Assembly (NCBI GenBank): GCA_001899145.1
Contig: MKVF01000018.1
Span: 186,001-250,000 of the forward strand
Length of the DNA: 64,000 nt
Origin: Flavobacteriia bacterium 40-80
GTDB lineage: Bacteria > Bacteroidota > Bacteroidia > Flavobacteriales_D > Crocinitomicaceae
Direction of reading: 5' to 3'
Part shown: piece by piece, positions 4,953 through 21,582 of the stretch
How positions within the stretch are numbered: position 1 is the stretch's first letter
How the letters are laid out: each line of letters starts with the position of its first letter
Notes under the pieces: model-generated
Seen by the model: the letters and a program-made list of their open reading frames with translations, nothing else
Databases searched by the model: none
Told to the model about the DNA's origin: nothing
Position numbers and translations under genes: made by a program

Positions 4953-5026
4953 GGTCCTATAGCTCAGTTGGTTAGAGCACCTGACTCATAATCAGGTGGT
5001 CGCTGGTTCGAGCCCAGCTGGGACCA
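4953..5026 (+). tRNA. tRNA with CAT anticodon (tRNA-Ile2 or tRNA-Met)
   Basis: This is a 74-nt cloverleaf. The acceptor stem GGTCCTA pairs with TGGGACC with one G-T pair. The D arm is AGCTCAGTTGGTTAGAGC. The anticodon stem CCTGA/TCAGG encloses loop CTCATAA, giving anticodon CAT, and the T arm has GGTTCGAGCC. Discriminator base A; CCA is not encoded. The anticodon alone cannot separate elongator Met from lysidine-modified Ile2. The variable region and T stem (GGTCGCTGGTTC) resemble E. coli tRNA-Ile2, so I lean to Ile2. Confidence 0.9.
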
Positions 5027-5030
5027 CGAA

Positions 5031-5074
5031 AAGAAAAAAGCGAATTACGGAAGTAGTTCGCTTTTTTCTTTTGC
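5031..5074 (+). terminator. Intrinsic terminator after the tRNA
   Basis: There is a perfect 14-bp stem (5031-5044 with 5057-5070), a 12-nt loop, and a T-rich 3' arm continuing TTTTTTCTTTT. It starts five bases after the tRNA. Confidence 0.85.
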
Positions 5075-5304
5075 AGAGCGAGAGTGGAGAGTGGAAGAAG
5101 AGTGTGAAATCCTGATTCGAATCCTTTTACTTTTCTCAAATTAATAAGGATTTTATTTTGCTTAAAAGGCATTCTGTTTTAGTTTTTTTGTCGTATTACA
5201 TCATTCCTGTAACGATGGATTGTTCAAAAATAAAAATACACTATCATCTGTAACTTATCATAAATCAAGTGTTATAATTCTCATAGAAATAAATTACCAA
5301 AAAC

Positions 5305-6495
5305 ATGATTCTAAAATTACTTCCTCTTCTTCTCGTTTTCAATTGCTTTTATTCCGGAGCATGTACAGTATATAAAATAACACAATCCGGTAAAACCTTT
5401 GTAGGGAATAATGAAGACTATTGGAATTCGAATACACGAATTTGGTTTGAAAAAGGAAAGGCAGAAGAATATGGCTGCATGTTTGTGGGATATGACGATA
5501 TGTATCCGCAAGGTGCAATGAATGAAAAAGGGTTGGTCTATGACGGATTTGCAATTGATGATTATATTCCCGGGAAACAACCCGGAAAGCCAATTTTCAA
5601 GGCTGACATGATGAAGGTAATCATGAAGACATGTGAAACTATTGAAGAGGTATATGCATTTTTAGAGAAGTATGATTTAAGCTCTTTGCGACGGGGAATG
5701 TTGATGTTTGTAGACAAATCCGGAACTTTTCTTATTGTTGAAGCAGACACATTAATAAAGAGCGAGGAAGCAACTTATCTGGCTTCCAACTTTTGCCCGT
5801 CAAGAACTCCTGACTTAGATGCGGTGGATCTCTCATATTATCAGAAGGGGCGAAAAATGCTTACAATGGGAGCTGATACGAGCCTCAGTTATTTGATTGC
5901 ACTTTCGGATACCACACACCAAAGATGGCCACTCAATTCAGGTGGTACGTTGTATACAACTATTTATGATTTGAGCGAAGGGACAATCAACCTGTTTTTT
6001 TACCATGACTACACACATTCGGTAAAATTTAAGTTGGCAGATGAGTTGAGTAAAGAAGATGCTATTTTGGTTATCCCTTCTTTGTTTCCTGATAATGTCA
6101 AAGGTCAGCAACAGTTTCAGCGATACAACAAAACAAAAGAATTGGTTCGGTTACTTCAGGAAACCAATCTCTGTAAAGATTCCACAGCTTTGGAAGGCTA
6201 CATCAAATCAGCAGATTTGGGGCCAATGCCCGACTTCTTTGAGAATGAAATCATGACTGTCGGGAGAGATTTTCTTGATAAAAATGAACTGCTTTCAGCA
6301 ATTAATGTGTTCAAAATGTATCTCAGCTATTCACAATACCCTTGGATTTGTTACGATGGGTTGGGAGAAGCATACCTGAAAAGAAAAGAATATAGGTCGG
6401 CGCTGTTTTTTTATACTGAATCACTGAAAGTGCTGCCCGATAACATGCAAACGTTGAAGCAGGTGAAAAAATTAAAGAAACGATTGAATATGTGA
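5305..6495 (+). CDS. Secreted N-terminal-nucleophile (linear amide C-N) hydrolase with TPR-like tail
   Basis: This is a 396-residue protein. The signal peptide (1-19) ends SGA and is followed at once by Cys20-Thr-Val-Tyr. Exposure of Cys at the mature N-terminus is the mark of the choloylglycine hydrolase/acyl-CoA:6-APA acyltransferase-like Ntn family. Supporting blocks are FVGNNEDYW near residue 35, AMNEKGLVYDGFAI near 75 and ASNFCPS near 165. The C-terminal ~110 residues look helical, with a TPR-like unit (DGLGEAYLKRKEYRSALFFY). It probably hydrolyses an amide in the periplasm or outside the cell; the substrate is unknown. It follows the tRNA terminator and appears monocistronic. Confidence 0.75.
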   Translation: MILKLLPLLLVFNCFYSGACTVYKITQSGKTFVGNNEDYWNSNTRIWFEKGKAEEYGCMFVGYDDMYPQGAMNEKGLVYDGFAIDDYIPGKQPGKPIFKADMMKVIMKTCETIEEVYAFLEKYDLSSLRRGMLMFVDKSGTFLIVEADTLIKSEEATYLASNFCPSRTPDLDAVDLSYYQKGRKMLTMGADTSLSYLIALSDTTHQRWPLNSGGTLYTTIYDLSEGTINLFFYHDYTHSVKFKLADELSKEDAILVIPSLFPDNVKGQQQFQRYNKTKELVRLLQETNLCKDSTALEGYIKSADLGPMPDFFENEIMTVGRDFLDKNELLSAINVFKMYLSYSQYPWICYDGLGEAYLKRKEYRSALFFYTESLKVLPDNMQTLKQVKKLKKRLNM

Positions 6496-6637
6496 GCTGA
6501 TCATCTGTATTTGTTTCGATAGCTATCGTAATCCCCCCGGTTTTATTAAAAAATGCAAATTAATTGTGTATTGTTGTCGAGTATATTATGTTTGTGACAA
6601 CAATTTAATTTTTATACCATGAAACAATTGACATTTG
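6496..6637. other. AT-rich intergenic stretch left of the IS element
   Basis: It holds a 12-bp palindrome CGATAGCTATCG at 6517-6528, a promoter-like element at 6564-6594, and a short ORF start at 6619 that the IS end cuts off. No complete gene is visible. Confidence 0.5.
6564..6594 (+). promoter_or_regulatory. Candidate promoter of an interrupted gene
   Basis: TTG at 6564 and TATGTTTG at 6587-6594 (about 20 bp spacing) fit the Bacteroidota promoter consensus. They are followed 25 bp later by an ATG at 6619. Confidence 0.4.
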
Positions 6638-6642
6638 GGTAA
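6619..6642 (+). pseudogene. Possible start of a gene cut off by the IS1-like element
   Basis: ATG AAA CAA TTG ACA TTT GGG is followed by TAA, and the stop falls within the putative IS end (GGTAATGTTT from 6638). A promoter-like sequence lies just upstream. No continuation of the reading frame is found right of the element, so the rest of the gene is either lost or this is a chance ORF. Confidence 0.3.
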
Positions 6643-7540
6643 TGTTTCAAATGGAGTTTTTGCCTGCTTATTGATGTCATTTAGTTGATAATAAAACAAT
6701 TAATTATTTTTTATGTACAGAAAATAGAGTTAGTATACTCATAAAAATTGGAGAACGTTTCTTAAATTGATTTTTATTGTGTTGTTTTAACCCTTATGTT
6801 TCAAATAGCACTTTTGATATGAACACATGTAGGTACTGCTATAATAAACAAATAATTAAAAAAGGAAAAAGAGGAATTGTTCAGCGTTATTTTGTAAATC
6901 TTGCCGAAAATATCAACAAGATATTTACAATTATATGCCCTTTGATGAATCAGATGATTTAAAAATAAGGCAGCTTCATTCAGAAGGTTTGGGAATACGC
7001 TCAATTTCGCGAATTTTAGGTTATTCACCTGCAACTATAATTCGTCGAATTTTACGCCTTAGAGCACTGATAACAAAACCCATTTATCATCAAAACAATC
7101 AGACTTATGAGGTAGATGAATTATGGACATTTGTTGGTAAAAAACATCCTGCTAATTATTATTGGGTTATTTACGCAATTAATCAAAAAACATACGAAAT
7201 AATTGATGTTGTTATTGGTTTAAGGAATAAAAAGAATCTTAAACAGGTTATTGATGTAGTTAAATTACAGAACCCAAAAAAGATTATTACTGATAAGCTA
7301 ATTACTTATCCAAAGTTGATTCTCCCGATTAAATATAATACTAATCAGTATGCAAACACTCGGATCGAAAGGATTAATCTAACATTGAGAACACACCTGA
7401 AGCGACTCAACAGGAGAACAATTTGTTTCAGTAAATCAATAAAGATGTTAGAAGCTAGTATTGTTCTTTATTTTGATGCCCGAGATTGGAAGCTAAAAAT
7501 TGAAAAATAGTATCTTTAAATGCTTATCAAAAACATTAAC
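6638..7540 (+). mobile_element. IS1-family insertion sequence (degenerate or frameshifted)
   Basis: It carries an IS1-type InsA/InsB-like transposase. The putative left end GGTAATGTTT (6638-6647) is nearly the inverted complement of AAACATTAAC at 7531-7540, and GGTAATG also resembles IS1 termini. A second left-end-like string (ATGTTTCAAATAGCAC, from about 6796) matches the right end comparably well and would give a ~750-bp element nearer the usual IS1 size, so the left boundary is uncertain. I found no convincing 8-bp target duplication with either boundary. Confidence 0.6.
6819..7510 (+). pseudogene. IS1-family transposase, split by a -1 frameshift
   Basis: Starting at ATG 6819 the protein reads MNTCRYCYNK...GIVQRYF, then leaves frame at the TTTT run at 6890-6893. 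A -1 shift there restores CKSCRKYQQDIYNY and joins the downstream frame, rebuilding a C-x2-C...C-x2-C zinc ribbon. An HTH follows (IRSISRILGYSPATIIRRIL), then an IS1-type DDE domain: D in YEVDELW, D in ITDKLITYP and E in RIERINLTLR, ending with RTICFSKS. The catalytic half is intact. IS1 elements do use programmed -1 shifting, but normally at a longer A-rich slippery site further downstream, so loss of one T is the simpler reading. Confidence 0.7.
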
Positions 7541-7550
7541 TTTCTCTTGT

Positions 7551-7675
7551 TTGGTTCGATTTCCGTCCGCTCTTCTCCACGAAACAGTAATGAGAGTGTA
7601 GAGCGAGAGCGTCACACTCTCATTTTTTTCATTCCTTTTCCGCTTGCAGGCTCACTCTTTTTTCTGATTAAGTAC
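7551..7675 (+). repeat. Structured intergenic repeat, copy 1
   Basis: This lies just right of the IS1-like element. It contains CTTCTCCACGAAACAG, then the hairpin GAGAGTGT(14-nt loop)ACACTCTC followed by ATTTTTTT, then CCGCTTGCAGGCTCACTC and CTGATTA. The same order of blocks recurs at 10.0 and 10.55 kb. The hairpin with T-tract is terminator-like on the plus strand. A loose partial match (GCAGAGCGAGAG) also lies at about 5073. Confidence 0.7.
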
Positions 7676-7697
7676 TTTTTTCGGGTTTGTTACTTAT

Positions 7698-9431
7698 TTA
7701 ACTATTGATACTTACCGTCCAGTTTTTAGCTAATAATTCCAGATAGTCGGGATTTGATGTGCCTCCTGTCGGGGCGGAATTCTTAGAGACACCTGTAACT
7801 TTAACTGTAATATCATACGCATCACTATCATTTCCCCAAATAATAACAGATGGATCTTCCTGACTTGCGATTGAGAAATATTCCAATACTATTGTCCGGT
7901 TTAATTCTTCAGTGCTGTATGGTTCTTGAATATCAAGTTCAACAATTACTCCTGATTCCCAGCGTGTCCAGATACCATTACACGAGTACCCACCATCAGG
8001 TAAGGGAATGCCTGTACTTACAACTTGTATTTTGTTTATTGGACCGCAACTCATAGCATATACGGTACTTGCTGACCATTTTGTGGGGATTGTTTCCGTT
8101 GCAACAAAAGGAACACCAGCTTGAACAAAGCCAACATTACTGAAATTGTCATTATCTGATATTGAGTCAATTCGATAGGTGTTGCCTATTATTAAACCCA
8201 CTCCCTCTTCTGCATATAAATATTTTTCTTGCTGTGATTGTAAATTGACTTCCATTCTCGGATAGTCATCCGGAAAGGTGTTTGGGAATTGTGTGTTGAG
8301 AACATGTAAGATATGATCAACAGACTCCTGCGTAAGATTACAATCCGAGAAGTAGAATCTAAATTCTGAATTTAACGTATCATGAATAGAAGGAAGATTA
8401 TGAATGATAACGTTTTTTAGATTGGAATTTGGAGAAAAGGAGTAGTGTCCTCTGTAATAAGGAAGCTCGGGGAATGAAAATGGACCATCCATATAAATAC
8501 CCGAAGGTTTTAATGTTGAAAAATCAAGCACAAGATTTTCTAAAGTGGTAGAACATAGAGAAATGTTCATGTCCCGGTACATCTTGAATGTAAGATCCGG
8601 GTTTGTTACACACCAGGGTACTCGTTTAGATCCGCCTAATTGTAAGCCGCCAATTCTGGGTAAATCAATAACATCATCAATAATTTTAATGGTATGGTGT
8701 TTATTTACTCTATTTCCGGGATGAATATAGCCTGCTGCAAGATTTGGATAATCTGAAAGCTTTAAATTTATTATATTATCTAATGTGTACGTGCCGGTCA
8801 ATAATTCCAGATAGGTAAGACTGTCTTTGTATATGTTAGGTAATTCCAGACTTTTGACAACAACTCCCAGACAGATTGCAGCGTAATTTCCTTTGCTTAA
8901 ATCCACATCCAGATTCATCGGGAGTTTTGGTCTTATTGTAAGACCCCCGCCTAAGTCTTCCCCATACATAGGTACGGAAAGCGGTCCCCAAGAATAATTG
9001 CCTAATAGCGGTTGTTGCAGAATAAAAGTTTGTAAAGCAGGCTTGAAATTTTCATCTATATATTTTTTTTGAATGTATGTATTATCTGTATATTCTTCTC
9101 CGTAATACTCATTTGCATCAATTCCCTTCGAGTCGTCAAATCTGAACGAAGATTCATTATATTCTATGGAAGGCTGTCCGGTGGTTAAGTTGACTCCTAC
9201 CTTGGAGTTATTTCCAAAGGAATCAAAATTAAAACCAATAGTTTTGGATGCGGTCTTATTTCCGGTAACTTCAATATCCTTGTTTGTTAAATTACCTCGT
9301 TCTAAAATATTTTGCAATGTCATTTCAGCGATAGCTCTTACGACTTCGCGAAGTTTTTCAGCTGTAATATAACCTTGCTGATTTGAAGGAAGGTTCTTAG
9401 TAATTAAATTTTCAATTTCTGCATTTGTCAT
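7698..9431 (-). CDS. Orphan phage-tail-fibre-like / structural protein
   Basis: This 577-residue protein has no signal peptide. The N-terminus (GYITAEKLREVVRAIAEM, about residues 20-37) resembles the start of phage-type structural proteins from Bacteroidota. The middle has irregular leucine-rich stretches. Near residue 430 the segment NFSNVGFVQAGVPFVATETI matches a short module common in phage tail fibres (the DDF-NVG...G-F-ATGT-PT-W type). The gene is AT-rich and has no phage neighbours. It lies between the IS element and repeat copies, which suggests horizontal origin. Function beyond 'tail-fibre-like' cannot be assigned; the module match is from memory of the family. Confidence 0.5.
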   Translation of the reverse strand: MTNAEIENLITKNLPSNQQGYITAEKLREVVRAIAEMTLQNILERGNLTNKDIEVTGNKTASKTIGFNFDSFGNNSKVGVNLTTGQPSIEYNESSFRFDDSKGIDANEYYGEEYTDNTYIQKKYIDENFKPALQTFILQQPLLGNYSWGPLSVPMYGEDLGGGLTIRPKLPMNLDVDLSKGNYAAICLGVVVKSLELPNIYKDSLTYLELLTGTYTLDNIINLKLSDYPNLAAGYIHPGNRVNKHHTIKIIDDVIDLPRIGGLQLGGSKRVPWCVTNPDLTFKMYRDMNISLCSTTLENLVLDFSTLKPSGIYMDGPFSFPELPYYRGHYSFSPNSNLKNVIIHNLPSIHDTLNSEFRFYFSDCNLTQESVDHILHVLNTQFPNTFPDDYPRMEVNLQSQQEKYLYAEEGVGLIIGNTYRIDSISDNDNFSNVGFVQAGVPFVATETIPTKWSASTVYAMSCGPINKIQVVSTGIPLPDGGYSCNGIWTRWESGVIVELDIQEPYSTEELNRTIVLEYFSIASQEDPSVIIWGNDSDAYDITVKVTGVSKNSAPTGGTSNPDYLELLAKNWTVSINS

Positions 9432-9485
9432 GTTCGTTATGTATTAGCTTTTGTTGTTTCGAATATTATCTATAAGCAATGTATA

Positions 9486-9518
9486 TTCAGAACTACAATT
9501 ATTTATATAAGTTCTGAA
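9486..9518. repeat. 9-bp inverted repeat upstream of the tail-fibre-like gene
   Basis: TTCAGAACT and AGTTCTGAA are separated by 15 AT-rich bases, 55 bp upstream of the minus-strand start at 9431. It could be an operator or a leader hairpin; there is no further evidence. Confidence 0.35.
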
Positions 9519-10010
9519 CGTACAATTAAGCTTGTGTGGGCATTCCAATACTTTTTTTGACATAATTCTGTTTCCGGATTGGGAACTTCTTCAAAAAACA
9601 CTATCAGCTTTGGAGCGGGAAAACATTCTTTCTGTCATTTTACGATAAATTTTCGGGTGTTGACAATTGAACTGGATTCTGACATAGTATTTAGGTTTTA
9701 ATTAATGTGAATGAGTACTCACTTTATAATAAGAAATGTTAGAAATCAATAACCCTTAATAAAAGGAACCCTTACTTTTTACTTTTAGCAAAGTAATGGA
9801 ATTGCTTACTCTTGTACAAGAGTATAAGTGCCTGATTTTAATTAGGTATTTATACCTTTGTGTTAATGAAACATAATTCCTTATCTTTCATCTTAAAAAC
9901 CAATCATAACTCTGTGCAAATGTATTAAGCTGAATTATTAATGGATAACAAAATAAAACTACATTTTAACACTCAAATTGTCATTCTTTATAGCTTATTA
10001 CTGAATAATT

Positions 10011-10135
10011 TCCGGTTCTATTTTCGTTCGTTATTCTCCACAAGACAGTAACGAGGTGAAGAGTGAAAACTTCCACACTCGTTTTGTTTTCAATCCTTTC
10101 CCGCTCAGGCTCACTCTTTTTCTCTGATTAGTTAA
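10011..10135 (+). repeat. Structured intergenic repeat, copy 2
   Basis: This has the same block order as copy 1: TTCTCCACAAGACAG, then a bulged hairpin (GAGGTGAAG with CTTCCACACTC) followed by GTTTTGTTTT, then CCGCTCAGGCTCACTC and CTGATTA. The stem arms differ from copy 1 but still pair. It ends about 55 bp before the four-helix-bundle gene. Confidence 0.65.
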
Positions 10136-10190
10136 TTTTGATTCAAAATAATTCAGTAAATTCAATACTAATTTACTAATACACTATTCC

Positions 10191-10538
10191 ATGTTCGATT
10201 TTAAACTTGATGTTTATCAAAAAGCAAAACAATTTAATAAAGAAGCATACACTTTCTTAAAAAACTCTAAGTCGATAGATTCGGTCTCTAGAAATCAATT
10301 GCGGCGTGCTTCGCTGAGCATCATGCTGAATATTGCAGAAGGATCCAGCCGTTTCAGTAAAGCTGATCGCAGGAACTTTTTTGTAATTTCCAGAGGTTCC
10401 GTATTTGAGTGTGTCGCAGTATTTGATTTTTTGAAGGATGAATCAATTTTGGCAGAAGAAATGTATATCCATTTTTATCGGCAGGCATATGAATTGTCAA
10501 GGATGTTATTTGCAATGATCAGAAACTTGCAGACCTGA
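10191..10538 (+). CDS. Four helix bundle protein (23S rRNA IVP/S23 family)
   Basis: This is a 115-residue all-helical protein. It has the family hallmarks: FKLDVYQKAKQF at the start, SRNQLRRASLSIMLNIAEGSSR near residues 44-63, then FFVISRGSVFECVAVFDFL. The family includes proteins encoded in intervening sequences of 23S rRNA genes, and it is structurally related to the accessory protein Avd of diversity-generating retroelements. No reverse transcriptase or rRNA is nearby. The gene lies between repeat copies 2 and 3 in the same orientation, so it may travel with them. Its function is unknown. Confidence 0.85.
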   Translation: MFDFKLDVYQKAKQFNKEAYTFLKNSKSIDSVSRNQLRRASLSIMLNIAEGSSRFSKADRRNFFVISRGSVFECVAVFDFLKDESILAEEMYIHFYRQAYELSRMLFAMIRNLQT

Positions 10539-10553
10539 ATAACTAAATATTAT

Positions 10554-10655
10554 TTTGGTTCCATTTTAGTCCACGCTTCTCTACGAAACAGAGAAGAGTG
10601 TGCAGAGCGAGAGCGTTGCACACTTTTTATTTTGATACCTCTCTGCTTCAGATTT
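10554..10655 (+). repeat. Structured intergenic repeat, copy 3
   Basis: It begins 15 bp after the four-helix-bundle stop. A hairpin CTTCTCT(acgaaac)AGAGAAG is followed by a second, AGTGTGCA(12-nt loop)TGCACACT, and then TTTTTATTTT. The loops match copy 1 (ACGAAAC, GAGCGAGAGCG) while the arms differ. The distal CAGGCTCACTC block is weaker here. It may serve as terminator for the gene to its left. Confidence 0.65.
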
Positions 10656-10772: not shown

Positions 10773-12977
10773 ATGAAGATAATTACCGTGTCATACCGTT
10801 TGCCTGTATCTTTGAAAAAAGAGAATCGCAAGCCTGTTTTTCGGCAGAGTGATGGAGGATTAGCTACCGCTTTATTATCCTACTCGGAAAAAAGCGGGTA
10901 CCCACTTACCTGGATCGGAGTCGCTGACTTTGATGAATCTCTCTGGAAAAAAGCTAAGAAGGAATGCCCTGTAGATTTTGAATTGGAACCAGTTTTCCTG
11001 GATAAGCATGTGAACCGCCGTTTTTATGGAGGGTTCAGTAATTCTATTTTATGGGCGCTCTTTCATTACTTCCCTTCCTTTATTGAGTACTCCGAAGAAG
11101 ATTTTGAAGCATATAAGACAGTGAATGATGTAATTGCTCAAAAAATTGACGAAATATACAAGCCCGGAGATATTATCTGGATCCATGATTACCATTTTCT
11201 TGGATTACCGGCGCTGGTAAGGAAACGGCAGCCAAAAGCACCTGTTGGTTTTTTTCTGCACATACCGTTTCCCGACTTCGAGATGTTTCGTATTCTTCCG
11301 GACAGAACCAGACGTTATCTGCTGGAAGGTATATTAGGAAGCAACCTTGCGGGATTCCATACCTGGGACGATACAATTCATTTTTCGGAGTGCATTGAAA
11401 AAATCCTGGGAATAACTCACCGCAACTTTTTTATTGACAGGGAAACCCATCATGTGCAAATGGGTGCTTTTCCTATCAGCATAGATTTTAATAAGTTTCA
11501 TAATGCCTATTACCATGAAAATGTAGTCCGGCTGAGAGAAGAAATCCGCGGATTATATGAAGAGAAAAAAATCATTTTCTCTGTGGACCGGCTTGATTAC
11601 ACTAAAGGAGTAAACAACCGTCTCAATGCATTCGAGAACTTTCTCATAAAGTATCCTGAGTGGAGGGAAAAGGTTGTTTTTCTGCTTATTATCATTCCTT
11701 CACGTGAAGGGATAGGCAAATACAAAGAACGAAAGCGGATGATCGAATTGAATATCAGCCGTATTAATGGCACGCTGGGAAATTATAAGTGGACACCCGT
11801 AGTATATCAATATCAACCGGTGAATTTTGATAAGCTGATTGCATTATACACGAGTGCGGATATCGCGCTGATCACACCAATACGTGACGGAATGAACCTG
11901 GTTGCCAAGGAATACGTAGCTTCCCGCCGGGACAAGCGGGGAGTGTTGATACTGAGTATTATGGCAGGAGCGGCAAAGGAGCTTCAGGAAGCCATAGCTA
12001 TCAACCCGTTAGATACGCTTCTCATCAGTGATATGATTGCCAACGCATTAGTGATGGATAGTTCAGAACAGGAAGCAAGAATGGAAAAAATGCAGAAGTA
12101 TTTAAGAAAATACGATGTAACTTTTTGGGCAAATGATTTTCTCAGGACAATAGAGGAGGTATATCGGAAAGATACTCATACGCTAGATCTTGACGGAATC
12201 CAAAAAGAAAATCTGCTCAAAAAGTTTAGCAAAGCAGGCAAACGGTTGCTTCTGCTGGATCTTGATGGCACGCTTATTCCTTTTAAATCCCGGCCGGAAC
12301 TGGCAGTTCCTGATCAGGAGCTTTTGGATTTACTAAAAAAATTAGGACAAGATCCCAAGACGGACGTCTGGATCATCAGCGGGAGAAGCAGGGATTTTCT
12401 GGAGAAATGGTTCGGTGACTTGCCTATCGGATTGGTTGCTGAGCATGGAGGATATATTCGTTATGATGAATGGGAATCGGTTATACAGGAGGAATTAGGT
12501 TGGAAGAATAAAGTGACGGAGATTATGCAGAAATATACGGATATCCATTCGGAGAGTCTGGTTGAAATCAAAGAGTTTGGTGTTGCGTGGCATTATCGTC
12601 AGCTGAATGAGGAAAGGGGATTTCTTTTATCCAGGGAATTATTGGGATTGCTGAAGAGCCATTTGTTCAACGCACCGGTACAGGTGATTGACGGTAAAAA
12701 AGTTATCGAGGTAAAACACTTTCTCGCACATAAGGGAACTACCTGTCGCAATTATATTTTGGGCAGGGGACATGATCTGATCATTGCATTCGGAGATGAT
12801 AAAACAGACGAAGATTTGTTTGAATGGCTTACGGGTGAAAATGAGATTTCCGTTAAAGTAGGAAGGGGAAGTACTGTTGCTAAATATCGTGTGGAATCAG
12901 TGAGCAAAGTACATGAAGTACTGGAAGAACTATATGCCCGATCATTGTCACCTGCATCCGTAGTTATAAACAAATAA
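10773..12977 (+). CDS. otsAB: Bifunctional trehalose-6-phosphate synthase/phosphatase (OtsA-OtsB fusion)
   Basis: This 734-residue cytoplasmic enzyme makes trehalose from UDP- or ADP-glucose and glucose-6-phosphate in two steps. Residues 1 to about 465 are a GT20 domain: GGLATALL near the start, [42 protein letters not shown] and [16 protein letters not shown]. From about residue 485 a HAD-type trehalose phosphatase follows: [13 protein letters not shown] (motif I), [13 protein letters not shown] (motif II) and [13 protein letters not shown] (motif III/IV). All catalytic motifs look intact. The fusion is common in Bacteroidota and links to osmotic or desiccation tolerance. ATG at 10773 is 33 bases after TATATAAAG-like sequence. 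Confidence 0.93.
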
Positions 12978-21434: not shown

Positions 21435-21495
21435 TTAAAAAATAATAACAAGAACAAGGGGCCAATTCTCTTGGTTAATAAAAAAATAATAAGTC

Positions 21496-21577
21496 CGTCA
21501 CTTCCCTACGCAAGCATTACCTTGATCAGGTCAATGGGTATAATCTCAGTTCCGTTTACCGGAACACCCCTTAGAGA
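21496..21577 (-). promoter_or_regulatory. TPP (thi-box) riboswitch
   Basis: On the minus strand the leader reads GGGGTG, a variable hairpin (TTCCGgtaaaCGGAA), CTGAGA, TTATACCC, CCTGATC, AAGGTAATGCTTG and CGTAGGGAAGTG in the canonical THI-element order. P1 is formed by TCTCT with AGTGA. The aptamer ends about 60 nt before the ATG of the TonB receptor. No clear terminator follows, so translational control is likely but not shown. Confidence 0.95.
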
Positions 21578-21582
21578 CATGA

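Follow-up and report, generated by a model that had tools for sequence, protein, structure and literature searches.

The three copies of a structured repeat in the window (the whole 64,000-nucleotide stretch of DNA analysed here, part of contig C18 of a 3.5-Mb genome) probably mark the junctions between short gene cassettes stacked at the 3' end of a tRNA-Met(CAU) gene. In this reading, to which we give a probability of about three in four, each cassette runs from a left end (LE) through its cargo to a right end (RE), and the cassettes would have entered by precise recombination, with the enzyme acting in trans. The stacked-cassette nature of the array behind the tRNA is well supported by sequence comparison; that the units move, and that an enzyme moves them, we infer.

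Two-part repeats and the array in the window

The initial annotation of this DNA described a three-copy repeat with flanking arms that differ yet still pair, and both claims are confirmed. The copies, at 7550, 10011 and 10554, form an ungapped 87-nt alignment in which the other two are 64% and 78% identical to copy 1, and a whole-genome search with copy 1 as query returned copy 2 with an E-value of 9e-22 and copy 3 with one of 2e-14. The minimum free energies of the hairpins are -20.6, -17.1 and -22.5 kcal/mol for copies 1 to 3, below those of shuffled controls (z -4.6, -2.7 and -5.7); 0, 3 and 0 of 200 shuffles, respectively, folded equally well. The hairpins have no Rfam match. Rfam finds only one tRNA and one TPP riboswitch in the window, the latter an ordinary one on the minus strand (21486-21582, 63 bits). 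Among BLAST matches elsewhere in the same genome, those at L006-L008 were short and of the chance type, and L006 and L007 had no hairpin when read; they were rejected.

Each copy has two parts, a 28-nt RE and an LE hairpin that directly adjoins it. The LE hairpin has a GNRA tetraloop (GAGA or GAAA), a short stem and a T-rich tail. Of the conserved loop blocks first described, GCGAGAGC / GTGAAAAC stands, being the GNRA tetraloop, but CTCCACGAAACAG is no loop and consists of the last part of the 28-nt element, which is separate, together with the opening bases of the hairpin segment. Similarly, the second hairpin is indeed followed by T-rich sequence, as described, but so are the other two, and the clearest T-runs are those of copies 1 and 3. 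Read in this way, the repeats divide the DNA behind the tRNA as follows.

4953-5027, plus strand: tRNA-Met(CAU)-type gene, anchor of the array (ARAGORN; Rfam tRNA, 74 bits)
5028-5072, plus strand: unit A LE, terminator-like hairpin directly 3' of the tRNA (fold -25.8 kcal/mol, z -6.4)
5305-6495, plus strand: unit A cargo, 396-aa protein with weak TPR only (ORF, Pfam)
6935-7510, plus strand: IS1-type transposase gene within unit A (PF03400, 3.7e-21)
7553-7580, plus strand: RE 1, 28-nt tRNA-3'-end mimic, closes unit A (2 mismatches to the Fluviicola element)
7581-7631, plus strand: unit B LE, hairpin (main stem 7589-7624) and T-tract (z -4.6; covarying class)
7698-9431, minus strand: unit B cargo, 577-aa protein (ORF; no Pfam match, weak PHROG match only)
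10014-10041, plus strand: RE 2, closes unit B (4 mismatches to the Fluviicola element)
10042-10090, plus strand: unit C LE, bulged hairpin (fold z -2.7)
10191-10538, plus strand: unit C cargo, PF05635 gene (23S rRNA-intervening sequence protein; 8.9e-26)
10557-10584, plus strand: RE 3, closes unit C (6 mismatches to the Fluviicola element)
10585-10634, plus strand: last LE hairpin, stem from 10589 (fold z -5.7)

Units A (5028-7580), B (7581-10041) and C (10042-10584) are thus about 0.5-2.6 kb in size. The stem of the unit A LE differs in sequence from those of the three hairpins first reported. Upstream of the tRNA-Met lies a heme A synthase-type gene, which occupies the same place in Fluviicola genomes with different inserts. 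On the other side, a trehalose-phosphate synthase/phosphatase-type fusion gene (10773-12977) adjoins the last LE. This gene might be a fourth cargo; no RE was seen behind it, and a protein search with otsAB for an orthologous right flank found no match in 29 relatives.

Recurrence at tRNA and tmRNA genes

Hairpins of the same class lie behind tRNA-Gln and tmRNA in this genome and behind many tRNAs in relatives. In a census of the source genome, about eight tRNA/tmRNA genes are followed by a related hairpin, a GIY-YIG gene or a PF05635 gene. The tmRNA heads another array there (L004, L005; C6:29-33 kb), and its hairpin recurs 3.3 kb downstream behind the RE-like GTTCGATTTCAGTTGCACCGCCTCCAC. Within the Fluviicola-containing genus, 13 of 14 genomes have LE matches, which are often clustered and number up to 37 per genome.

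The positions of these elements follow a simple rule. Of the 65 LE starts whose boundary is clean, 32 lie directly behind a tRNA or tmRNA gene, 26 behind an RE and 7 elsewhere. The count is not blind, its queries having been picked from known junctions, and one RE case among the 26 is an artefact of the palindrome on the reverse strand. The 32 LE-bearing genes are those for tRNA Met, Ala, Phe, Arg, Lys, Val, Leu and Gln and for tmRNA; the REs preceding the 26 LE starts carry a GTTCNA-like T-loop motif; and several of the remaining seven starts are preceded by recognisably decayed REs. The units are ordered LE-cargo-RE and often follow one another in tandem from the tRNA, which heads the array. 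In Fluviicola chungangensis, one LE sequence stands both behind the tRNA and behind the first RE (96% over 223 nt). Orthologous loci differ in what lies in them: the tRNA-Met locus has the same upstream gene and different inserts in several genomes, and at the tRNA-Val locus the inserts differ while the right-hand gene is the same in three genomes (G096, G095 and G106); a fourth (G101) has neither LE nor GIY-YIG gene there.

The RE mimics the end of a tRNA from the T-loop to the acceptor and finishes in the CAC common to tRNA 3' ends. The 28-nt element, which has the consensus GGTTCCATTTCCGTTCGCTCTTCTCCAC, is found with three or fewer mismatches in 12 of 240 family genomes, where a reversed-pattern control gave 0; the named relatives that carry it are Fluviicola and another member of the Crocinitomicaceae. 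Most RE copies examined have a tRNA-Met(CAU), tRNA-Ala(GGC) or tmRNA gene some 1-6 kb upstream, and in relatives the RE closes a stretch of one or a few genes, after which a terminator-like hairpin follows. RE termini resemble the local tRNA: they are GCGCAC / TTGCGCAC at tRNA-Leu, TTCCCCAC at tRNA-Val, GACTCCAC at tmRNA and TTCTCCAC at tRNA-Ala, and at tRNA-Met only the last four bases (CCAC) are common to RE and tRNA. Overall, 4 to 12 terminal bases are shared with the local tRNA, and another tRNA sometimes matches better. The RE of one unit behind tRNA-Leu(CAA) has a tRNA-Leu(UAA)-type 3' end, and that of a unit behind tRNA-Phe in another genome carries the 3' end of tRNA-Met. These foreign ends are the best signs that units may move between tRNA genes, taking their RE along.

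The LE hairpin is under selection as a structure. In 60 LE hairpins, the loop-anchored pairs 2, 4, 5, 6 and 8 are paired in 88-100% of cases, each by several pair types; when the 3' partners were shuffled (500 shuffles), at most 60-78% were paired, a control that keeps relatedness, but the stems differ widely between classes. This pair count replaced a MAFFT alignment of the AGAGCGAGAGCG class, which had shifted the right arms against the left. The covariation supports the selection on paired structure first suggested from three copies and, since further copies have been found as well, the repeat family survives on both of the grounds on which it might have failed.

As to function, the first reading had offered a terminator family, a small RNA or a mobile palindromic element. 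Nothing was found in support of a small RNA. The terminator reading fares better: the intrinsic-terminator form, a stable hairpin with a T-tract, is present directly behind tRNA genes, and this position together with the T-tail makes a terminator the natural reading of the LE. A simple consensus terminator scan did not single the LE hairpins out, but we consider it likely, from their sequence and placement, that they act as terminators. The mobile element was right in part, in that the repeats seem to mark something mobile; the mobile unit, however, would be the whole LE-cargo-RE cassette and not the hairpin. The layout of REP or MITE-type repeats, with the palindrome itself as the dispersed unit, is not seen here, as 58 of the 65 LEs stand behind a tRNA, a tmRNA or an RE.

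At orthologous tRNA loci, the cargo varies between genomes and includes many anti-virus defence genes. Our sample is 28 array proteins picked by eye, 10 of which were run against PADLOC, and it does not represent a rate. In relatives, the cargo includes ThsB-like (Thoeris-like) TIR proteins, a SIR2/STAND protein, a CBASS-effector-type patatin, an AAA_13 protein resembling PrrC, DUF4143 and DUF2971 proteins that PADLOC flagged, a nuclease of the Mrr type and a regulator of the AbiEi type, as well as a subtilase + AAA pair and many unknowns. Two individual loci may be recorded here. A reverse transcriptase gene (RVT_1; L143 10211-11761) is cargo behind tRNA-Arg in one Fluviicola genome, and a Cas9-like frame (L096 7296-10001; N-terminus, by eye) starts directly behind a tmRNA array junction in one Fluviicola MAG.

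Relatives of the unit C PF05635 protein occur in 49 of the 240 family genomes, and those behind tRNA-Leu in Fluviicola are 69-83% identical to it. Of the 30 best loci, which were fetched, 20 lie no more than 700 nt downstream of tRNA-Leu (16) or tmRNA (4) on the same strand, where about 0.4% would be expected at random; several more lie behind an RE or at a contig edge. In the source genome, four of the six PF05635 genes (L009, L010, L011 and L014, on contigs C21, C4, C6 and C10) sit between operon-partner-like protein genes. Inverted repeats flank two of these (L009 and L010), in a layout that resembles that of rRNA intervening sequences, but in protein operons.

Proposed entry of the cassettes and alternative readings

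We propose that a circular unit, its RE joined to its LE, recombines precisely with the tRNA end at the ...CAC boundary. The newest unit would then adjoin the tRNA, and each older LE would come to stand behind a new RE. With the tRNA's own terminator displaced, the incoming LE would supply another, such that the tRNA transcript still ends properly; this suggests that insertion behind a tRNA may be made harmless by the terminator carried. The need for each LE to serve as the tRNA's terminator would explain why pairing is retained in the hairpin even as the arms vary. Against this proposal, the four bases common to RE and tRNA-Met are short for the usual crossover region, and neither an excised or circular unit nor a recent insertion was seen.

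The units look non-autonomous, and their enzyme would most likely act in trans, as a site-specific recombinase, whether from a helper element or of Xer type; the GIY-YIG nuclease of sister units is a less likely mover. No tyrosine integrase gene (PF00589) was found in the window array or near the LEs of G095 and G096. The former genome, a single contig with 15 LE matches, has only two PF00589 genes, both far from any LE and, by their size and presence in every genome, probably XerC and XerD. No carrier of the units was found among viral contigs, phages and plasmids: the 28-nt element is absent from the viral contigs searched, and the unit-C protein has no phage match and only weak matches in four cyanobacterial plasmids.

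These facts raise the possibility of a distinct, integron-like system that operates on tRNA and tmRNA 3' ends. Its non-autonomous cassettes, each with its own terminator and tRNA-end mimic, would be moved in trans, either by a recombinase that is unrecognised or has a housekeeping role or by a tRNA-targeting GIY-YIG nuclease, and would bank anti-phage defence and PF05635 genes across the family. We advance this broader proposal tentatively.

Alternatively, the arrays could be ordinary tRNA islands in decay, the REs being displaced tRNA fragments (attR) whose integrase has since been lost, with nothing special moving now. The platform and polarity are those of Islander islands, the RE resembles a tRNA 3' end, and the source genome does have ordinary integrase genes behind its tRNA-Lys and tRNA-Arg. 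However, simple decay would not yield a 28-nt RE that is near-identical across species and tRNA genes yet unlike the adjoining tRNAs. The small size of the units, their tandem arrangement with an LE for each, and the lack of integrase genes near the LEs of G095 and G096 also argue against decay, and we regard it as somewhat unlikely.

GIY-YIG genes (PF01541) lie right behind a tRNA and its terminator: many Fluviicola genomes have one at tRNA-Val, and the source genome has them at tRNA-Val, tRNA-Ala and initiator tRNA-Met. Others lie inside arrays. Homing is therefore a live alternative: the nuclease would cut the tRNA 3' end, and repair from the tRNA region of a donor would copy in the nuclease gene or a passenger cassette. 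Yet most units have no GIY-YIG gene, those that do have other end sequences, and cutting of tRNA DNA by GIY-YIG proteins is not known from the present analysis; this explanation seems to us improbable. Small GIY-YIG genes directly behind a tRNA and a terminator-like hairpin (L156, L158, L160, L161, L162, L166, L169, L217 and L227) were also noted in their own right. Several of them run at the 3' end into a pseudo-tRNA (D-arm onward), and the group may be a separate family of tRNA-end elements.

Very improbable is the notion that the hairpins are no more than dispersed palindromes or a terminator family, copied along with short flanking sequence and marking no mobile unit, which would account for structured repeats with covarying arms but not for their non-random placement behind tRNAs or REs, nor for inter-repeat stretches that vary by genome at the same locus.

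If the reading of stacked, mobile cassettes is right, both the location of short defence genes and genes of unknown function in this group (behind tRNAs) and their wrapper (LE...RE) become predictable, which offers a simple way to mine them. Further, the widespread PF05635 protein gains a new, testable setting at tRNA-Leu and tmRNA. The reading also raises a clear question: what moves the cassettes where the genome has just two tyrosine recombinases, both apparently of Xer type?

Comparison with known systems

Integron gene cassettes are small and tandem, with changing cargo and a fixed entry point. Their likeness to the units is one of layout only: no IntI-like or PF00589 gene was present at the arrays checked, a tRNA serves as the anchor, and the ends, as far as they were read, do not resemble attC. 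The 23S rRNA intervening sequences, from which the Pfam family takes its name, pair a PF05635-family protein with an insert that has hairpin flanks at a stable-RNA gene. In units of the unit-C type, by contrast, the PF05635 gene stands behind tRNA-Leu, tRNA-Met or tmRNA, where it lies beyond the mature RNA and is preceded by a terminator-like hairpin.

Among tRNA-anchored elements, the islands of the Islander class occupy tRNA and tmRNA genes, and their definition includes an integrase gene and a displaced fragment that is cognate (PMC4383910). Like the units, they have an intact tRNA at one end and a piece resembling a tRNA 3' end at the other, in the same orientation and from the T-arm region. 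The units differ in that they are without an integrase gene, that the mimic at their end has diverged and can derive from a different tRNA, and that they are only about 0.5-2.5 kb long, start with a terminator-like hairpin and stack in tandem; tandems of three or more number 4 among the 3919 Islander islands (PMC4383910). Tycheposons, described as 4-200 kb in size with a tyrosine recombinase and a tRNA border (PMC10872708), likewise carry cargo and are bordered by a tRNA such as tRNA-Met, whereas the units are short and those of the window have no PF00589 gene. In the open-access literature that our search covered, we found no description of a stack of tRNA-end cassettes. Given its differences from Islander islands, tycheposons and integrons, the array would represent a new form of tRNA-anchored mobile element.
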